Shown here: in pieces, positions 5,874 to 50,232 of the stretch
Numbering within the stretch: position 1 is the first letter of the stretch
How the letters are laid out: the number at the start of each line of letters is the position of its first letter
Assembly: GCA_030147525.1 (NCBI GenBank)
Contig: JASBVF010000032.1
Coordinates: forward strand, 62,001-126,000
Length of the DNA: 64,000 nucleotides
Reading direction: 5' to 3'
Source of the DNA: Bacteroidota bacterium
GTDB taxonomy: Bacteria > Bacteroidota > Bacteroidia > Chitinophagales > Saprospiraceae
Notes under the pieces: model-generated
The model's input: only the letters and a program-made list of their open reading frames with translations
What the model was told of the DNA's origin: nothing
Databases searched by the model: none
Made by a program: the position numbers and the translations under genes

Positions 5874-6149
5874 ATGGCGGTTTATCTAACCAGCGAGAAA
5901 AAGAACGAAATCTTTAAAGAATACGGTGGAGATGAGAAAAACACCGGTTCGATTGAAGGTCAAGTTGCCTTGTTTACTTACCGAATCAAAAGTCTTTCAG
6001 AGCACCTGAATTCATTCAAAAAAGATCACACAACCCGTCGTGCATTGCTTGCCATGGTAGGCAAGCGGAAGCGGCTCCTTGAGTATCTGAAAAAAAGAGA
6101 TATTCAGAAATACCGGGAACTGATCAGCAAGTTGGGTATTCGTGGATAA
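5874..6149 (+). CDS. rpsO: 30S ribosomal protein S15
   Basis: A 91-residue protein of the usual S15 length. It carries the family's diagnostic blocks: the N-terminal helix LTSEKKNEIFKEYG, then TGSIEGQVALFTYRIKSLSEHL, HTTRRALLAMVGKRKRLLEYL and a C-terminal YRELISKLGIRG. S15 binds 16S rRNA in the central domain and is a primary assembly protein of the small subunit. The neighbour downstream is pnp, the classical rpsO-pnp pairing, but here a strong terminator and 317 bases separate them. The long leader suggests autogenous control. Confidence 0.97.
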   Translation: MAVYLTSEKKNEIFKEYGGDEKNTGSIEGQVALFTYRIKSLSEHLNSFKKDHTTRRALLAMVGKRKRLLEYLKKRDIQKYRELISKLGIRG

Positions 6150-6466: not shown

Positions 6467-8710
6467 ATGGGTAAACAAATTCCTATCACTACCTCCTTCA
6501 ACCTGCCCGACGGCAGGGAGGTTACGATTGAGACTGGCAAACTGGCTGCCCAGGCCGATGGTTCAGTCGTTGTAAGAGTAGGCAACACGATGATTTTCGC
6601 ATCGGTTGTTGCTGCTAAAAAAGTCCGTGAAGGACAATCGTTTTTTCCGCTATCAGTCGATTATCAGGAAAAATTTGCAAGCGCCGGTCGTATTCCGGGC
6701 AACTTCTTCCGTCGTGAGTCAAAACTTTCTGATTACGAGGTTTTGATTTCCCGATTGGTAGACAGGGCTATTCGTCCGCTCTTTCCTGATGGGTTCATGG
6801 AAGACACGCAGGTAATCATCAACCTGATTTCCGCTGACAAAAACGTGCCGCCGGATGCCTTCGTCGCACTGGCCGCTTCAGCTGCACTCACTATCTCCGA
6901 AATTCCTTGGCAAGGGCCAATTTCCGAAGTTCGTGTAGCGAGAATCAATGGCAGTTTTCACATCAATCCGAACAAGTCGGATCTTGAAAATGCCGACATT
7001 AACCTCATCGTCGCCGCCGATGCTAAAAACATCATGATGGTGGAAGGCGAAGCTAAAGAATGCTCAGAGCGTGACCTCGTTGACGCCATCCGCCATGCTC
7101 ACGACGCCATCAAAGTACAGTGTCAGGCTCAGCTCGACCTCGCCCAGAAGGTGGGAGGTCCTGCACTGAATAAGCGTGAGTTTGAAGGGCTGCCCGAAAA
7201 TGAAGAAATCAAAAATCGTGTTGCCGAACTGGCAAAAGATAAAATTTACGAAGTAGCCAAAGCTTTCCTCGAAAAGCAGGAACGTAAAAACCGCCTGGAG
7301 GAAATCCAGAATGAAGTGGTCGAAAAGATCACCGAAGAGAAAGGCGAAGAGTTCATGGAAGAAAACGCCGGCCTGACCGAACGTTACTTTGACGAACTAA
7401 AGAAAAAAGTCGTTCGCAGCATGGTCTTGAATGACGGCGTTCGCCTCGACGGCCGTAAACCTGACGAGATTCGCCACATCTGGAGCGAAATCGACTACCT
7501 GCCTTCTCCACACGGTTCTGCGGTTTTCACCCGTGGTGAAACCCAGGCACTGACCAGCGTTACACTGGGTACGAAGCTGGATGAAATGATGATCGACAAT
7601 GCGCTGGAGCAGTCTTATGAAAAATTCATCCTGCACTACAACTTCCCACCCTACTCTGTCGGTGAAACGAAGCCGCTGCGTGGTCCGGGCCGCCGTGAAG
7701 TTGGACACGCCAACCTCGCCAGCCGTTCCATCAAGCAGGTAATGCCGGAAGATTTTCCTTACACTGTCAGAGTAGTCTCAGACATTCTCGAAAGTAACGG
7801 TTCTTCCTCCATGGCTACAGTTTGCGCAGGCTCACTGGCCCTCATGGATGCAGGTGTTCAACTCAAATCTGCCATCTCCGGTATTGCCATGGGTATGATC
7901 GCAGAAGACGGCAAAGCTGCCATCCTCAGCGATATCCTCGGAGACGAAGATGCGCTCGGTGACATGGACTTCAAAGTAACCGGTACCAAAAACGGTATTT
8001 GCGGTTGCCAGATGGACATCAAAATCGATGGTCTTTCTTTCGAGTTGCTCGAACAGGCGCTCATCCAGGCTAAAGCCGGCCGCCTGCATATTTTGGATAA
8101 AATGTCAGAAGCAATTGCTGAACCAAGAGAAGACCTCAAGCCTCATGCTCCGAGAATCGTGGAACTCATCATCGACAAGAGTTTCATTGGCGCCGTCATT
8201 GGCCCTGGTGGCAAGATCATTCAGGAAATCCAAAGTACAACCGGCACAATTATCAACATTACCGAAGTTGGCGATCAGGGAATTGTAAATGTTGCCAGCC
8301 CAGACAAGGAAAGCATCGATGCTGCTGTCAGCCGTATCAAGCAAATCACTTTCATGCCATCCGAGGGCGATGTTTACGACGCAGTCGTAAAAACAGTTAT
8401 GCCTTACGGTGTGTTTGTTGAATTCTCTGGCAAAAGCGGCTTGTTGCACGTGACTGAAATGTCACACTCCCGCATTGACAAAGTGGAAGATGTCTTTCAG
8501 GAAGGCGATCCGGTCAAGGTTAAACTGATCGGCATCGACAAGAAAACAGGCAAATTCCGCTTGTCTCGCAAGGCACTCATGCCTCGCCCTAACGGCGCTC
8601 CCGACGATGATGGTGTAGGAGAGGATCGTGGCGGCGACAGAGGTGGTCGTGGCGGCGGAAGAGGCGGCCGTGGCGGTGGCGGAAACTACAGAGGTGGTGG
8701 CCGTCGTTAA
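6467..8710 (+). CDS. pnp: Polyribonucleotide nucleotidyltransferase (PNPase)
   Basis: A 747-residue protein. Two RNase PH-like domains are separated by an all-helical linker: domain 1 at about residues 10-225 and domain 2 at about 310-555, the latter with the block GPGRREVGHANLASRS. A KH domain follows (VELIIDKSFIGAVIGPGGKIIQEI, about 565-625), then an S1 domain (GDVYDAVVKTVMPYGVFVEFSGKSGLLHVTEMS, about 635-705). PNPase degrades RNA 3'-5' by phosphorolysis and can add heteropolymeric tails, usually as a trimer within a degradosome. The last 30 residues are almost only Gly and Arg (RGG repeats), an RNA-binding tail absent from the E. coli enzyme. Confidence 0.97.
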   Translation: MGKQIPITTSFNLPDGREVTIETGKLAAQADGSVVVRVGNTMIFASVVAAKKVREGQSFFPLSVDYQEKFASAGRIPGNFFRRESKLSDYEVLISRLVDRAIRPLFPDGFMEDTQVIINLISADKNVPPDAFVALAASAALTISEIPWQGPISEVRVARINGSFHINPNKSDLENADINLIVAADAKNIMMVEGEAKECSERDLVDAIRHAHDAIKVQCQAQLDLAQKVGGPALNKREFEGLPENEEIKNRVAELAKDKIYEVAKAFLEKQERKNRLEEIQNEVVEKITEEKGEEFMEENAGLTERYFDELKKKVVRSMVLNDGVRLDGRKPDEIRHIWSEIDYLPSPHGSAVFTRGETQALTSVTLGTKLDEMMIDNALEQSYEKFILHYNFPPYSVGETKPLRGPGRREVGHANLASRSIKQVMPEDFPYTVRVVSDILESNGSSSMATVCAGSLALMDAGVQLKSAISGIAMGMIAEDGKAAILSDILGDEDALGDMDFKVTGTKNGICGCQMDIKIDGLSFELLEQALIQAKAGRLHILDKMSEAIAEPREDLKPHAPRIVELIIDKSFIGAVIGPGGKIIQEIQSTTGTIINITEVGDQGIVNVASPDKESIDAAVSRIKQITFMPSEGDVYDAVVKTVMPYGVFVEFSGKSGLLHVTEMSHSRIDKVEDVFQEGDPVKVKLIGIDKKTGKFRLSRKALMPRPNGAPDDDGVGEDRGGDRGGRGGGRGGRGGGGNYRGGGRR

Positions 8711-8796: not shown

Positions 8797-9240
8797 CTAA
8801 ACCTGTCTTTTTACAACCAGCGTCCCCGCGATCATATCGTGAAGCGCTTGTTTTTTATCTGTAAAACCAGCCATGAAAAAACCAATGAGAAGAATCATCG
8901 CAGAGAGAATTTTGGAAAAATACCGCCCGACAGCCTGCCCGACAGAGATGCGTCCGCCATGGATGTCAGTGACGACAATGCCAATCGCCTGTTTGCCGAA
9001 AGTCGCTTGTTTTTCAGAACTTTCGTAATAGACAAAATAGCCAACACTAATTAATGCTACCAAGATGCGGGAAAATACATTAGGTTCGAGGAAGTCACCA
9101 CCGATGGTACCGTAAATTACCAAACCTACCACCGTCATAATGATGGCATCAATGAGGTAAGCCGCTGCACGCAGCCAGAATCCAGCATATTCCGGTGAAA
9201 AGCCGTAACGGTCAGGGGAGTCAAGGATTTCATTTTCCAT
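8797..9240 (-). CDS. RDD family membrane protein
   Basis: A 147-residue protein with three hydrophobic segments. The first follows the family motif AGFWLRAAAYLIDAIIMTV, with the Arg-Asp pair that names the family. The second is RILVALISVGYFVYYES, followed by the conserved QATFGKQAIGIVVTD. The third lies near KILSAMILLIGFFMAGFT, followed by KKQALHDMIAGTLVV. RDD proteins are small inner-membrane proteins of mostly unknown role; some have been linked to sodium/proton exchange. Convergent with pnp. The 297-base stretch upstream of it (9241-9537) holds the divergent promoter of the next gene. Confidence 0.88.
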   Translation of the reverse strand: MENEILDSPDRYGFSPEYAGFWLRAAAYLIDAIIMTVVGLVIYGTIGGDFLEPNVFSRILVALISVGYFVYYESSEKQATFGKQAIGIVVTDIHGGRISVGQAVGRYFSKILSAMILLIGFFMAGFTDKKQALHDMIAGTLVVKRQV

Positions 9241-9448: not shown

Positions 9449-9479
9449 TTGGCGGAGTTCAAAGTTCAAATTACCTTTG
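9449..9479 (+). promoter_or_regulatory. Complete Bacteroidota-type promoter for the GlgE-like gene
   Basis: TTG (9449-9451), an exact 20-base spacer and TACCTTTG (9472-9479), 58 bases before the ATG at 9538. Both elements fit the consensus of the primary sigma factor of this phylum. Confidence 0.7.
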
Positions 9480-9537: not shown

Positions 9538-11484
9538 ATGAGAAACCGTACCATCATAACCAACGTGAAACCCGCTCTTGAAGGTGGTAAATATTTCATC
9601 AAGAGAGTTCCCGGAGAAGATGTTAACGTCTCAGCTGATATTTACTGTGATGGAGACGACACCATCAAAGCCGCAGTTTTATACAAAAAATCCGATGAGA
9701 AAAAATGGAGCGAGGCTCCGCTTTTCCACACGAATGGCGAGTCCTGGGCAGGGTCATTTACCGTGGAGTCGGAAGGAATGTATGATTATAAAATCGAAGC
9801 CTGGGTTGACCACCTCGCCAGCTGGCACAACAATTTCATCCGGAAGCACAGCCTCGGACAGCACCTGGCTACCGACCTGTTGATTGGCGTTGAGTTGTTG
9901 AAAAAAGCTGCCGGAGGCGCCGACAAACCAACAGCAAGTCTGCTTAAATCCTGGATAAAACTGCTGGAAAATGACACAAACTATCATGAGGCGGTATCAC
10001 TGGTTTTAAGCCAGGAGTTCGCCACCGCCATTGCCAATTGCCCTTTGAAGCAATTCCAAACTGTTTTTGATCAAAAACTAAAAGTACGGGTTGGCAGACC
10101 GAAAGAGCTTTTCAGCGCCTGGTATCTCATGTTTCCAAGGTCGGCCGCTGATAAGCCAGGTAAACATGGCACGCTGAAGGATTGTGAAAACCGCCTGCCC
10201 CGCATCGCAGAGATGGGGTTCGACACATTGTTGTTGCCGCCGGTTTTCCCGATTGGAAAGACTAATCGCAAAGGAAAAAACAATACATTGATTGCCAATC
10301 CCAACGACGTAGGCTCGCCATGGTCGGCAGGAAGTGAGGAGGGCGGCCACAAGTCTGTCCATCCTGAGCTTGGTACCATCAAAGATTTTGAAAAACTTGC
10401 TAAATCAGCGGCAGGTCTCGGCATCGAACTGGCGTTGGATGTCAGCCTACGTTGTTCGCTCGATCACCCCTACATCAAGGATCACCCGGACTGGTTTTTC
10501 CGGTTGCCGGATGGCAGTTTGCAGGTGGAAGAAGTTCCGCCGCTCAACTACATGGACATCGTCGATTTTAATTTTGAATGCGACGACTGGGAAAACCTCT
10601 GGAATGAATTGAAAAGTGTGTTTCTTTTCTGGGCGGAAAAAGGTGTCCGAATTTTCTATGCCAGTACGCCGCACCACAAGCCGTTTGCTTTCTGGCATTG
10701 GGTGATTCAAGAAGTACAAAAGAAATACCCGGAGGTCATCTTTTTCTCCGGCGCATTCACCCGGCGGGTTATCCGGGAAGAACTCGCAAAGTCCGGCTTT
10801 AACCAGTCCATCTCCAACTTCATCTGGCAAACCAGTATTAAGGAGTTACAGGATTATATGATTGAGGTAACACAGAGCGAAACGAAGGAATACCTGCATC
10901 CGAGTTTTTTCACCAATACACCTGACATACTGCCAAGCTACTTGGCTGACGCAGGCCCGAATTCATTCCTGCTTCGTTACGCACTTGCAGCCACTTTATC
11001 CTCCAACTGCGGTATTTACGGCCCGGTATTCGAGTTGATGTACAATGAACGGTACCCCGGCAGCAAGGAGCGCTACCAGCATTCTGAAAAGTATGAAATT
11101 CTGCATTTTGACTGGGAACATCGCAACCGGCTGACAGATTTTATTACCCGGCTCAACCGTATCAGAAAGGAAAATCCCGCATTTCACAATACTTTCAATA
11201 TTCACTTCACCAACGCAGACAATGACCAGTTCCTGGGTTTCGTCAAAGTCTCCCTCGACAAAAAGAATCTCGTATGGTGTATCATCAACCTAGATGTCAA
11301 CAACCGCCAAACCGGCCATGTGGAAGTGCCGAAAGCACTACTGGGCTTGAAAGGCAGTTGGTTCAACCTGAAAGTAACCGACTTGTTAACCGGTGAGGTT
11401 TATCACTGGTTTAACGACTGGAATTTTGTGGAACTCAACCCTGAACGTTTCCCGCTTCACGTCCTGAAAGTTGAGATGGGATAA
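9538..11484 (+). CDS. GlgE-like GH13_3 protein with altered catalytic residues (probable pseudoenzyme)
   Basis: A 648-residue protein that aligns along its length with alpha-1,4-glucan:maltose-1-phosphate maltosyltransferase: an N-terminal beta-sandwich (about 1-110), a helical insert, then the barrel with PRS, GKNNTLIANPNDVGSPWSAGSEEGGHKSVHPELGT, DHPYIKDHPDWFF and NTPDILP, and a C-terminal sheet domain. In active GlgE the nucleophile motif reads FRVDNPHTKP and the acid/base motif LAEAFT. Here these read FYASTPHHKP, with Ser376 in place of the nucleophilic Asp, and FSGAFT, with Gly405 in place of the acid/base Glu. The third carboxylate, Asp463 in NTPD, is kept. The frame is intact, so the gene is not simply decaying. 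No treS, maltokinase or glgB lies nearby. It may bind alpha-glucan or act as a regulatory partner; that is inference. Confidence 0.75.
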   Translation: MRNRTIITNVKPALEGGKYFIKRVPGEDVNVSADIYCDGDDTIKAAVLYKKSDEKKWSEAPLFHTNGESWAGSFTVESEGMYDYKIEAWVDHLASWHNNFIRKHSLGQHLATDLLIGVELLKKAAGGADKPTASLLKSWIKLLENDTNYHEAVSLVLSQEFATAIANCPLKQFQTVFDQKLKVRVGRPKELFSAWYLMFPRSAADKPGKHGTLKDCENRLPRIAEMGFDTLLLPPVFPIGKTNRKGKNNTLIANPNDVGSPWSAGSEEGGHKSVHPELGTIKDFEKLAKSAAGLGIELALDVSLRCSLDHPYIKDHPDWFFRLPDGSLQVEEVPPLNYMDIVDFNFECDDWENLWNELKSVFLFWAEKGVRIFYASTPHHKPFAFWHWVIQEVQKKYPEVIFFSGAFTRRVIREELAKSGFNQSISNFIWQTSIKELQDYMIEVTQSETKEYLHPSFFTNTPDILPSYLADAGPNSFLLRYALAATLSSNCGIYGPVFELMYNERYPGSKERYQHSEKYEILHFDWEHRNRLTDFITRLNRIRKENPAFHNTFNIHFTNADNDQFLGFVKVSLDKKNLVWCIINLDVNNRQTGHVEVPKALLGLKGSWFNLKVTDLLTGEVYHWFNDWNFVELNPERFPLHVLKVEMG

Positions 11485-48178: not shown

Positions 48179-48207
48179 CCTTTTAAAAAACTGAATCCTT
48201 GCTCAAT

Positions 48208-50232
48208 ATGAAATTCCTTTTCTTTTTTATTTCCTCCATTTTGCTATCCATGACGACCCTTGCTCAGAAAAATTTGAAGTTCGTTGAAAAATTTGGCGAC
48301 GTGTCATTCGACAACTATCCTGTTTACACCAAGGATGATCTCGGGCTTACCTTTTCAAAAAAGAAGCTCACTTTTAAAATTTGGTCGCCCCCGGCCAAAA
48401 AAGCCCGCATCCACATTTACGACAACGGAATCAGTGGCGTACCGGAGAAAACAAAAGAATTGAAAAAAGGAAAAGACGGCCTCTGGTCCATTAAATTGAG
48501 CCGCAAGCTGGAAGGTAAATTCTACACTTTTCAAATCCTTTACGATAGTATCTGGCTGGCCGAAACTCCCGACCCCTACGCCAAGGCCACAGGCGCCAAT
48601 GGCAACCGGGCCATGATCCTCGATGTCAGTGCCACGAACCCCGAAGGATGGGAAAACGACCAGCGGCCTTCGTTAAAAAGTTTCAGCGACATTATTCTCT
48701 ACGAACTGCATCTGCGTGACATTTCCGTGTATCCCAATTCCGGCATCGAGCACAAAGGCAAATACCTCGGCCTGGCTGAAACCGGAACAAAAACCTCCAC
48801 GGGCCTCAGCACCGGCCTCGATCACATCAAGGAACTTGGCGTTACGCACGTCCACATTCTGCCGGCCTTTGACCATCGTTCCATCGACGAGGAAAAACCT
48901 TTGGACAACCAATACAACTGGGGTTACGATCCGAAAAATTACAACGTCCCGGAAGGCAGCTATTCCACCGATCCTTACGACGGCGCAGTCCGCATCCGGG
49001 AGTTCAAACAGATGGTGAAATCACTTCATGACAATGGCCTGCGGGTCGTCATGGATGTGGTCTACAACCACACGGGCGGCGCCGTCGAAGAAAACCCGCT
49101 GTACCTGCTGGCCCCAAATTATTTCTACCGGATGGGCGACTCACCGAACTATGAGTTTACCAACGGCTCAGGCTGTGGCAACGAAACCGCTTCCGAGCGC
49201 CCGATGATGCGCAAATTCATGGTGGAGTCCATGGCGTATTGGGCTAAAGAATACCACATTGATGGCTTCCGGGTGGATCTGATGGGTCTGCACGATATCG
49301 AAACGATGAATGCAGTTGCTGCCGAGCTCCGCAAAATCGATCCAACCATTTTCATCTACGGCGAAGGCTGGACTGCCGGGGATACACCGCTGAGCGAACA
49401 ACAAAGAGCCGTAAAAACCAACACGCTCAAACTGGACGGCATTGCAGTTTTCAGCGACGAATTCAGAGATGGAGTGAAGGGCCACGTTTTTCAACCCAAC
49501 AACAAAGGTTTTATCAACGGCGAGCAAAAACTGAAGGAAAGTGTCAAATTCGGAATCGTCGGCGCCGTAAGCCATCCGCAGGTCGATAACAAACAAGTCA
49601 ATTATTCGAAATATCCCTGGGCAAAAACGCCTACCCAGTGCATTAACTACGTCTCCTGCCACGACAACCACACCCTTTGGGATCGTCTGAAAAACTCCTG
49701 CGCAGGCAGCACTGAACAGGAAATGCTGGAAATGAACAAACTCGCCCAGACCATTGTGCTTACTTCCCAGGGCGTGCCGTTCCTTCACGCAGGTGAAGAG
49801 TTTATCCGGACGAAATTTGGCGTGGAAAACTCTTTCGAAGCTCCCGACCACATCAACATGATCAACTGGGACAACAAAGCGCAATACGCCGACGTCCTTA
49901 CCTATTACCAGGACCTGATCAAACTTCGCAAGGCTCATCCCGCTTTCCGCATGAGTACGCAGGAGGATATTGCTAAACATCTTGAGTTCCTGGATGTTCC
50001 TCACGACAACATGATCGTTTACCAACTGAAAGACCATGCAAACGGCGACAGTTGGAAACGCATCGTGCTGATTTTTAACGGAAATAAAGTAGGCAAGCAG
50101 GTTGAAATTCCGCAGGGTAACTGGAACATCATTTGCCAGAACGGCCGCATCGCTCACGAAGGAATGGGCATGATAACCGGCAATAAAGCGAATGTCTTAC
50201 CCTATTCCGCCTGCATTCTGGCAGAATGGTAG
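48208..50232 (+). CDS. pulA: Type I pullulanase
   Basis: A 674-residue secreted GH13 enzyme (signal MKFLFFFISSILLSMTTLAQ). A CBM48-type domain lies at about 40-125, and then the barrel carries the type I pullulanase signature YNWGYDPKNY. Catalytic residues are Asp357 (GFRVDLMG, nucleophile), Glu386 (IYGEGW, acid/base) and Asp486 (SCHDNH). It hydrolyses alpha-1,6 branches in pullulan, glycogen or starch limit dextrins. It probably sits in the periplasm. The ATG at 48208 is preferred over a TTG three codons upstream. bshB1 follows 36 bases later, apparently unrelated in function. Confidence 0.95.
   Translation: MKFLFFFISSILLSMTTLAQKNLKFVEKFGDVSFDNYPVYTKDDLGLTFSKKKLTFKIWSPPAKKARIHIYDNGISGVPEKTKELKKGKDGLWSIKLSRKLEGKFYTFQILYDSIWLAETPDPYAKATGANGNRAMILDVSATNPEGWENDQRPSLKSFSDIILYELHLRDISVYPNSGIEHKGKYLGLAETGTKTSTGLSTGLDHIKELGVTHVHILPAFDHRSIDEEKPLDNQYNWGYDPKNYNVPEGSYSTDPYDGAVRIREFKQMVKSLHDNGLRVVMDVVYNHTGGAVEENPLYLLAPNYFYRMGDSPNYEFTNGSGCGNETASERPMMRKFMVESMAYWAKEYHIDGFRVDLMGLHDIETMNAVAAELRKIDPTIFIYGEGWTAGDTPLSEQQRAVKTNTLKLDGIAVFSDEFRDGVKGHVFQPNNKGFINGEQKLKESVKFGIVGAVSHPQVDNKQVNYSKYPWAKTPTQCINYVSCHDNHTLWDRLKNSCAGSTEQEMLEMNKLAQTIVLTSQGVPFLHAGEEFIRTKFGVENSFEAPDHINMINWDNKAQYADVLTYYQDLIKLRKAHPAFRMSTQEDIAKHLEFLDVPHDNMIVYQLKDHANGDSWKRIVLIFNGNKVGKQVEIPQGNWNIICQNGRIAHEGMGMITGNKANVLPYSACILAEW

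Follow-up and report, generated by a model that had tools for sequence, protein, structure and literature searches.

What does a protein do once it has kept the scaffold of the maltosyltransferase GlgE and lost the residues with which that enzyme works? The question is raised by one gene in a 64,000-nucleotide stretch of a Saprospiraceae genome (contig JASBVF010000032.1), which is called the window here. An earlier note, made from the sequence, described its product as a GlgE paralogue maintained as a pseudoenzyme, with a complete promoter, that could bind maltose-1-phosphate or alpha-glucan or modulate a true GlgE encoded elsewhere. The features on which the analysis rests are collected in Table 1.

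The gene and its lost catalytic positions

The open reading frame begins with ATG and is free of internal stops. In Pfam its product matches GlgE_dom_N_S (GlgE N/S) with 158 bits and GLGE_C with 70 bits; the alpha-amylase match is marginal, 22.3 bits against a cut-off of 22. A phmmer search of the solved GlgE structures aligned residues 4-645 with the Streptomyces coelicolor enzyme at E ~1e-134. A predicted model (pLDDT 92.9) superimposes on solved GlgE with a TM score of ~0.9, and the GlgE fold is thus predicted to be intact. The best Foldseek match of the model is a D394A GlgE mutant co-crystallised with maltodextrin, and GlgE and other GH13 entries are among the matches listed by VIA-align. 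Homology to GlgE in sequence and fold therefore covers the full length, N/S and C domains included, and the GlgE scaffold and intact frame described by the earlier note stand.

Residues are numbered below as in S. coelicolor GlgE (Sco) unless a window number is given. The alignment gives D394 to Ser376, E423 to Gly405, R392 to Tyr374 and N395 to Thr377, in agreement with the substitutions first read from the sequence. All 93 canonical rows, a few of which are identical sequences or the same species from two collections (e.g. L040/L097, L086/L098), have D at 394 and E at 423. A shifted catalytic Asp or Glu was ruled out: the alignment has no gaps around either motif, and the positions at which the clade described below has gained fixed acidic residues (Sco 56, 304, 350 and 432) are away from the motifs. 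A sequencing or assembly error was also ruled out, since both losses are present in 11 genomes. Judged from its sequence, the gene product is very probably non-catalytic in the GlgE sense.

Table 1. Positions of the gene, its upstream neighbours and the codons discussed in the text (window coordinates)
Feature	Position	Strand	Evidence or state in the clade
rpsO, upstream neighbour	5874-6146	+	NCBIfam S15_bact
pnp, upstream neighbour	6467-8710	+	NCBIfam polynuc_phos
Promoter-like element TTG-N20-TACCTTTG	9449..9479	+	8/11 orthologues
Catalytically dead GlgE (GH13_3 scaffold), 648 aa	9538..11484	+	ORF, Pfam, phmmer, predicted model
Lys245..Asn249, -2 subsite residues still present (Sco K264, N268)	10270..10284	+	K, N in 11/11
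Arg305 codon, place of -1 subsite Gln (Sco Q324)	10450..10452	+	R in 11/11
Val333..Leu336, former phosphate-site Asn352 and Lys355	10534..10545	+	V10 E1 and L11 of 11
Tyr374 codon, place of conserved Arg (Sco R392)	10657..10659	+	Y10 F1 of 11
Ser376 codon, place of nucleophile Asp (Sco D394)	10663..10665	+	S in 11/11
Gly405 codon, place of acid/base Glu (Sco E423)	10750..10752	+	G in 11/11
Asp463 codon, transition-state stabiliser still present (Sco D480)	10924..10926	+	D in 11/11
Lys518-Tyr519, -2 residues still present (Sco K534, Y535)	11089..11094	+	K 10/10, Y9 F1 of 10 readable

Distribution in two genera

Relatives were gathered from 199 and then 398 family genomes, from 14 genomes of the window's genus and from public genome contigs (57 loci). 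Genomes reached by both the family search and the loci (e.g. G199, G307) were matched via contig and coordinates, and L089-L095 and L106 were dropped as duplicates of clade genomes. Trees and residue counts exclude L083, which is the second piece of the G206 gene, and the fragments L130 and L131; 13 distant rows (11 Variovorax plus L078 and L079) were omitted from one tree. One Variovorax locus (L077, Variovorax sp. KBW07) has a GlgE-containing stop-to-stop frame of 1329 aa, which may reflect a fusion or an extended open frame upstream.

The gene is present in 11 of the 14 genus genomes, and both catalytic losses are common to all of these. The 11 sequences, of which the 10 full-length ones are 52-88% identical in pairwise protein comparison, form one clade (SH-aLRT 100; bootstrap/SH-aLRT 100/100 for 7 representatives in a tree of 35 representative rows). 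Ser394, Gly423, Leu355 and Arg324 are invariant in it; position 392 is Tyr in ten members and Phe in one, 395 is Thr in ten and Ala in one, and 352 is Val in ten and Glu in one.

A second Saprospiraceae genus, g97, has lost both catalytic residues in 5 of 5 recovered sequences. Its states differ from those of the window's genus (394 S/A, 423 G/A, 395 V, 355 L/F/Y), and R392 and Q324 are kept. E216, present in 93/93 canonical rows, is lost in both genera, and the remaining family sequences readable at 394 and 423 have D and E. In the 35-row tree the two genera group at 84/77 on a very short branch, so that one origin or two origins of the catalytic loss are both possible. The 16 recovered GlgE homologues that lack both catalytic carboxylates (11 from the genus, 5 from g97) mean that the GlgE pathway is less widespread than annotation by GlgE domains alone suggests.

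The binding pocket

The contacts named for GlgE in PMC4526890 are N352, K355, Y357 and N395 for the phosphate; Q324, R392, D394, N395, E423 and D480 for the -1 subsite; and K264, N268, residue 279 (S/V), D359, K534, Y535 and the A282 backbone for the -2 subsite. For the acceptor, PMC5076824 names H397, P428, Y445, W448 and R449, with H397 and W448 as the +1/+3 contacts, and Y646 at a secondary site. In the clade, Y357 alone is kept at the phosphate site (352 V10 E1, 355 L11, 395 T10 A1), and all of the -1 site is lost save D480. The -2 side-chain ligands (K264, N268, 279, D359, K534, Y535) are retained in every readable member, Y535 being Phe in one. The acceptor site is mixed: H397 and W448 are each found in 11/11 and Y445 in 10/11, P428 is found in 0/11, R449 is R7 K3 Q1, and the secondary-site Y646 is F7 Y3. 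In the aligned sequences the loss is therefore selective: catalytic, -1 and phosphate residues have given way, for the most part to new residues that are fixed, but D480, the -2 subsite and some of the acceptor site remain. PMC5076824 describes crystals in which the D394A and E423A variants of S. coelicolor GlgE, made in the laboratory, have malto-oligosaccharides bound. Counting against glucan binding, the window protein has itself lost several acceptor contacts (Y445 to N, R449 to Q, P428 to R).

Columns that hold one residue in at least 97% of 62 Bacteroidota canonical rows and are changed in the clade were taken as switched. There are 37 of these. Nine are invariant in their new state among the 10 full-length clade members, including Q324R, K355L, V393A, D394S, E423G and E528R; the other 28 vary. 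In addition, A350 has become acidic in 11/11.

The partly fixed new states could mean that the pocket was remodelled to carry out another reaction, with a sugar in the -2 subsite and Arg305, the acidic residue 331, Tyr374, Ser376, a mostly His residue 380 and Arg512 as the candidate residues. The nine invariant columns and the acidic A350 column point that way. There are precedents, a GH13 group described as active although it lacks the usual third catalytic Asp (PMC5347038) and GH130 relatives with changed phosphate ligands described as having turned hydrolases (PMC4599007). The first of these, the BmaN1 group, lacks only the third Asp, however, whereas here the two carboxylates on which the retaining mechanism depends are both missing and D480 alone is left, and most switched columns (28/37) are variable within the clade. 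A new enzyme of this kind is considered unlikely.

In g97 the retained part of the pocket is itself eroded, K264 and N268 being lost in 3/5 members and W448 in 4/5, and glucan binding may thus not be the common retained function of the two genera. The three sequences without the -2 residues (L102, L103, L104) also lack the acceptor W448, and they may have drifted to a non-sugar role. These losses, in frames that read open (several reach contig ends), are what one would expect if the fold served only protein-protein contacts, as a scaffold or dimer partner of, for example, GlgB, GlgA or PNPase, with any sugar binding incidental. Non-enzymatic GH13 scaffolds are described for rBAT/4F2hc (PMC8537225) and for plant ISA2 (PMC12510319). 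A pure scaffold, however, would not need the -2 ligands, and these are kept in all readable members of the window's genus, with the one Phe at 535. For the window's genus such a role is doubtful, and binding of glucan remains the preferred reading.

Neighbourhood, promoter-like element and selection

By clustering, pnp lies upstream of the gene in 8 clade loci, and rpsO does so too in 5 of those; in the window pnp and the gene are separated by an opposite-strand RDD-family gene (8800-9240). Downstream, six clade loci have an opposite-strand gene of a phosphofructokinase cluster (the family was named from scanned proteins), which is judged to be a neighbourhood marker only. An operon with glycogen genes was considered; none was recognised among the neighbours inspected, and the gene stands apart.

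Between pnp and the gene sits a promoter-like element. The pattern TTG-N19/20-TACCTTTG begins 87-90 bases 5' of the ATG in 8/11 orthologues and TACCTTTGA is invariant in 8/8 pnp-linked orthologues; in this comparison two of the start points (L049, L046) are not ATG. The pattern occurs in 1.3% of shuffled upstreams and in 0/8 canonical Saprospiraceae upstreams, and one g97 locus (L046) has one looser match. In the three genus members without the element the gene is located elsewhere in the genome. The element resembles the Bacteroidota -33/-7 promoter consensus. A promoter of sigma-70 type was also sought: the lone start-proximal match overlaps the ATG, and a 3-kb stretch has 7 matches against a shuffle mean of 3.8 (sd 1.9), not clearly above the shuffles. 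The earlier statement that the promoter is complete does not hold in that form.

In all 11 clade genomes the gene is free of internal stops; in one of them, G206, it is split across two contigs. Two of 22 clade pairs have usable dS, neither including the window gene, and both give low dN/dS, 0.042 and 0.061, as expected under purifying selection. The g97 values are 0.061-0.087 (3 pairs, two with dS >1.5), and canonical pairs with dS <1.5 give 0.030-0.154 (5 pairs) and 0.055-0.212 (56 pairs). The low dN/dS of the two usable pairs and the conserved promoter-like element suggest maintenance, and the loss of the essential catalytic residues is fixed in the clade. A maintained pseudoenzyme, as opposed to decay, is thus the part of the earlier note's interpretation that is supported; Ser376 and Gly405 are conserved throughout the clade.

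Slow decay, in which function went with the pathway and the gene is simply still undegenerated, is quite improbable. It would account for the absence of the gene from 3/14 genus genomes, an absence that marks it as dispensable, and it is helped by the stop-bearing copy in another genus and by the small number of usable pairs. Against it, frames are open across members at 52-88% protein identity, dN/dS is low where measurable, the promoter-like element is conserved, and both catalytic positions are fixed clade-wide in one new state. The stop-bearing copy (L131, G237:C27) is a canonical-type glgE with several stops, apparently decaying, in contrast to the intact pseudoenzyme.

Second GlgE, donor supply and glycogen route

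None of the 11 clade genomes, which are drafts, yielded a second GlgE. PF11896 (GlgE N/S) has one match per genome in all 11, and likewise in 6 intact-GlgE genomes and one g97 genome searched alongside; in the g97 genome G182 the GlgE gene spans two contigs. With no other GlgE found in the window's genome, "paralogue" is the wrong word, and the genomes searched give no support to the idea that the protein modulates a true GlgE.

The supply of maltose-1-phosphate was searched for in the same way. The absences below rest on draft genomes that are 70-100% complete. TreS passed its curated cut-off in 0/16 catalytically lost genomes (0/14 and then 0/2), 0/14 genomes without GlgE and 0/3 genus members without the gene, compared with 26/33 intact-GlgE relatives (Fisher p for TreS = 3e-7; the genomes are related, so one or two events lie behind this figure) and 6/6 further ones. 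The maltokinase cap domain was matched in 22/33 intact-GlgE genomes, 0/14 catalytically lost genomes and 0/14 genomes without GlgE, by a search that is insensitive, with no match in 7 intact-GlgE genomes that have TreS, several of them with long fused-type TreS frames. A GlgM-type synthase over the cut-off was found in 0/16 lost genomes and in 1/37 of all those searched. No genomic source of maltose-1-phosphate (TreS plus maltokinase, or GlgM) therefore passed the cut-offs in the 11 gene-carrying genus drafts. Four genomes (G091, G187, G183, G075) have an intact-looking GlgE and neither a TreS nor a maltokinase match, one of them being listed as 100% complete; they may be incomplete genomes, have missed genes or use another donor source. 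The link between GlgE and its donor pathway is thus not absolute.

That the protein is still a maltosyltransferase, with unusual catalytic residues, is hardly credible. In favour of this, the protein still has the whole fold, D480 and the -2 subsite; against it, other residues stand in place of the nucleophile, the acid/base and most phosphate ligands, and the donor-making enzymes are undetected. Binding of maltose-1-phosphate, the first ligand suggested in the earlier note, is disfavoured as well, because the -1 site is mostly replaced, as are three of the four phosphate ligands, and neither TreS, maltokinase nor GlgM passed the cut-offs.

The classical glycogen route is present in the genus. 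Of its 11 gene-carrying members, 11 have GlgB and 10 GlgC over the cut-off; a GT5 frame as long as GlgA (477-506 aa) is present in 10, and the frame of the remaining one has 246 aa. The genes glgC and glgA are found together in the window's genome, where they pass TIGR02091 and TIGR02095 (this is the only GlgA frame so scanned). Among three g97 genomes, two (G182, G097) have GlgA and GlgC and the third (G207) has GlgB only.

Two further observations concern related proteins. A stand-alone frame of ~270-300 aa resembling the N-terminal half of starch synthase (Glyco_transf_5) recurs in the family, for example at G000:C54:318058-318744 (L133) and similarly in many of 61 genomes; it may be another truncated glycogen-synthase relative. 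The window also encodes, at 48199-50232 (+), a GH13-like protein of 677 aa. Judged by eye, it resembles a pullulanase or isoamylase and its GH13 motifs look intact; its N-terminus has a signal-like stretch.

Proposed function

The reading preferred here, with a probability of about 0.5, is that the gene encodes a maintained pseudoenzyme derived from GlgE, a cytosolic and probably dimeric alpha-glucan-binding protein in cells that make glycogen with GlgC, GlgA and GlgB. It descends from the maltosyltransferase GlgE and, on sequence grounds, has lost the ability to form the maltosyl-enzyme intermediate. A glucan chain would be held by its non-reducing end in the old -2/+1..+4 groove, and such holding may steady or prime the glycogen made by GlgC-GlgA-GlgB, or recruit partners to it. 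Retention of the -2 subsite, H397 and W448 makes glucan binding plausible; a role at the glucan end is favoured by these residues together with D480 and Y357 and by the crystal binding of the D394A and E423A variants. The likely history is that an ancestor lost both the TreS/maltokinase supply and GlgE catalysis and retained a binding function.

A broader suggestion, offered tentatively, is that two Saprospiraceae genera made the hub enzyme GlgE non-catalytic while losing the pathway that feeds it, and that in the window's genus the pocket was rebuilt, either to read the ends of glycogen chains or to serve a new enzyme whose substrate is classical-route glycogen. The loss of catalysis coincides with the absence of the donor-making enzymes, which lets one ask what an enzyme keeps once its reaction ends. 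The separation of the subsites, phosphate and -1 lost and -2 kept, gives a directly testable prediction on glucan-end binding in bacterial glycogen metabolism.

Comparison with known systems

Natural pseudoenzymes of the alpha-amylase family are already known. Among the matches listed in the open-licence PMC literature there is no report of a natural GlgE pseudoenzyme.

Compared with GlgE itself (alpha-1,4-glucan:maltose-1-phosphate maltosyltransferase, GH13_3; S. coelicolor 3ZSS/5LGW, M. tuberculosis 4U33), the window protein replaces D394, E423, R392, Q324, N352, K355 and N395. Compared with GlgE systems, its genome has no TreS, maltokinase or GlgM over the cut-off and no recognised glycogen gene adjoining. 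By analogy, the noncatalytic ISA2 and the rBAT/4F2hc ectodomains are closest in kind. ISA2, the noncatalytic GH13_11 isoamylase paralogue of green plants, is described as having lost catalytic residues including the nucleophile and as long kept (PMC12510319). Unlike the window protein, in whose genome no second GlgE was detected, it forms complexes with its paralogue ISA1. The rBAT/4F2hc ectodomains are described as alpha-amylase-family proteins in a non-enzymatic role (PMC8537225), but as membrane-anchored vertebrate transporter heavy subunits they have no role in glycogen. The laboratory variants D394A and E423A are altered at the same two positions (as given in PMC5076824). Those are single engineered changes, whereas the natural protein also alters the phosphate site and other -1 residues.
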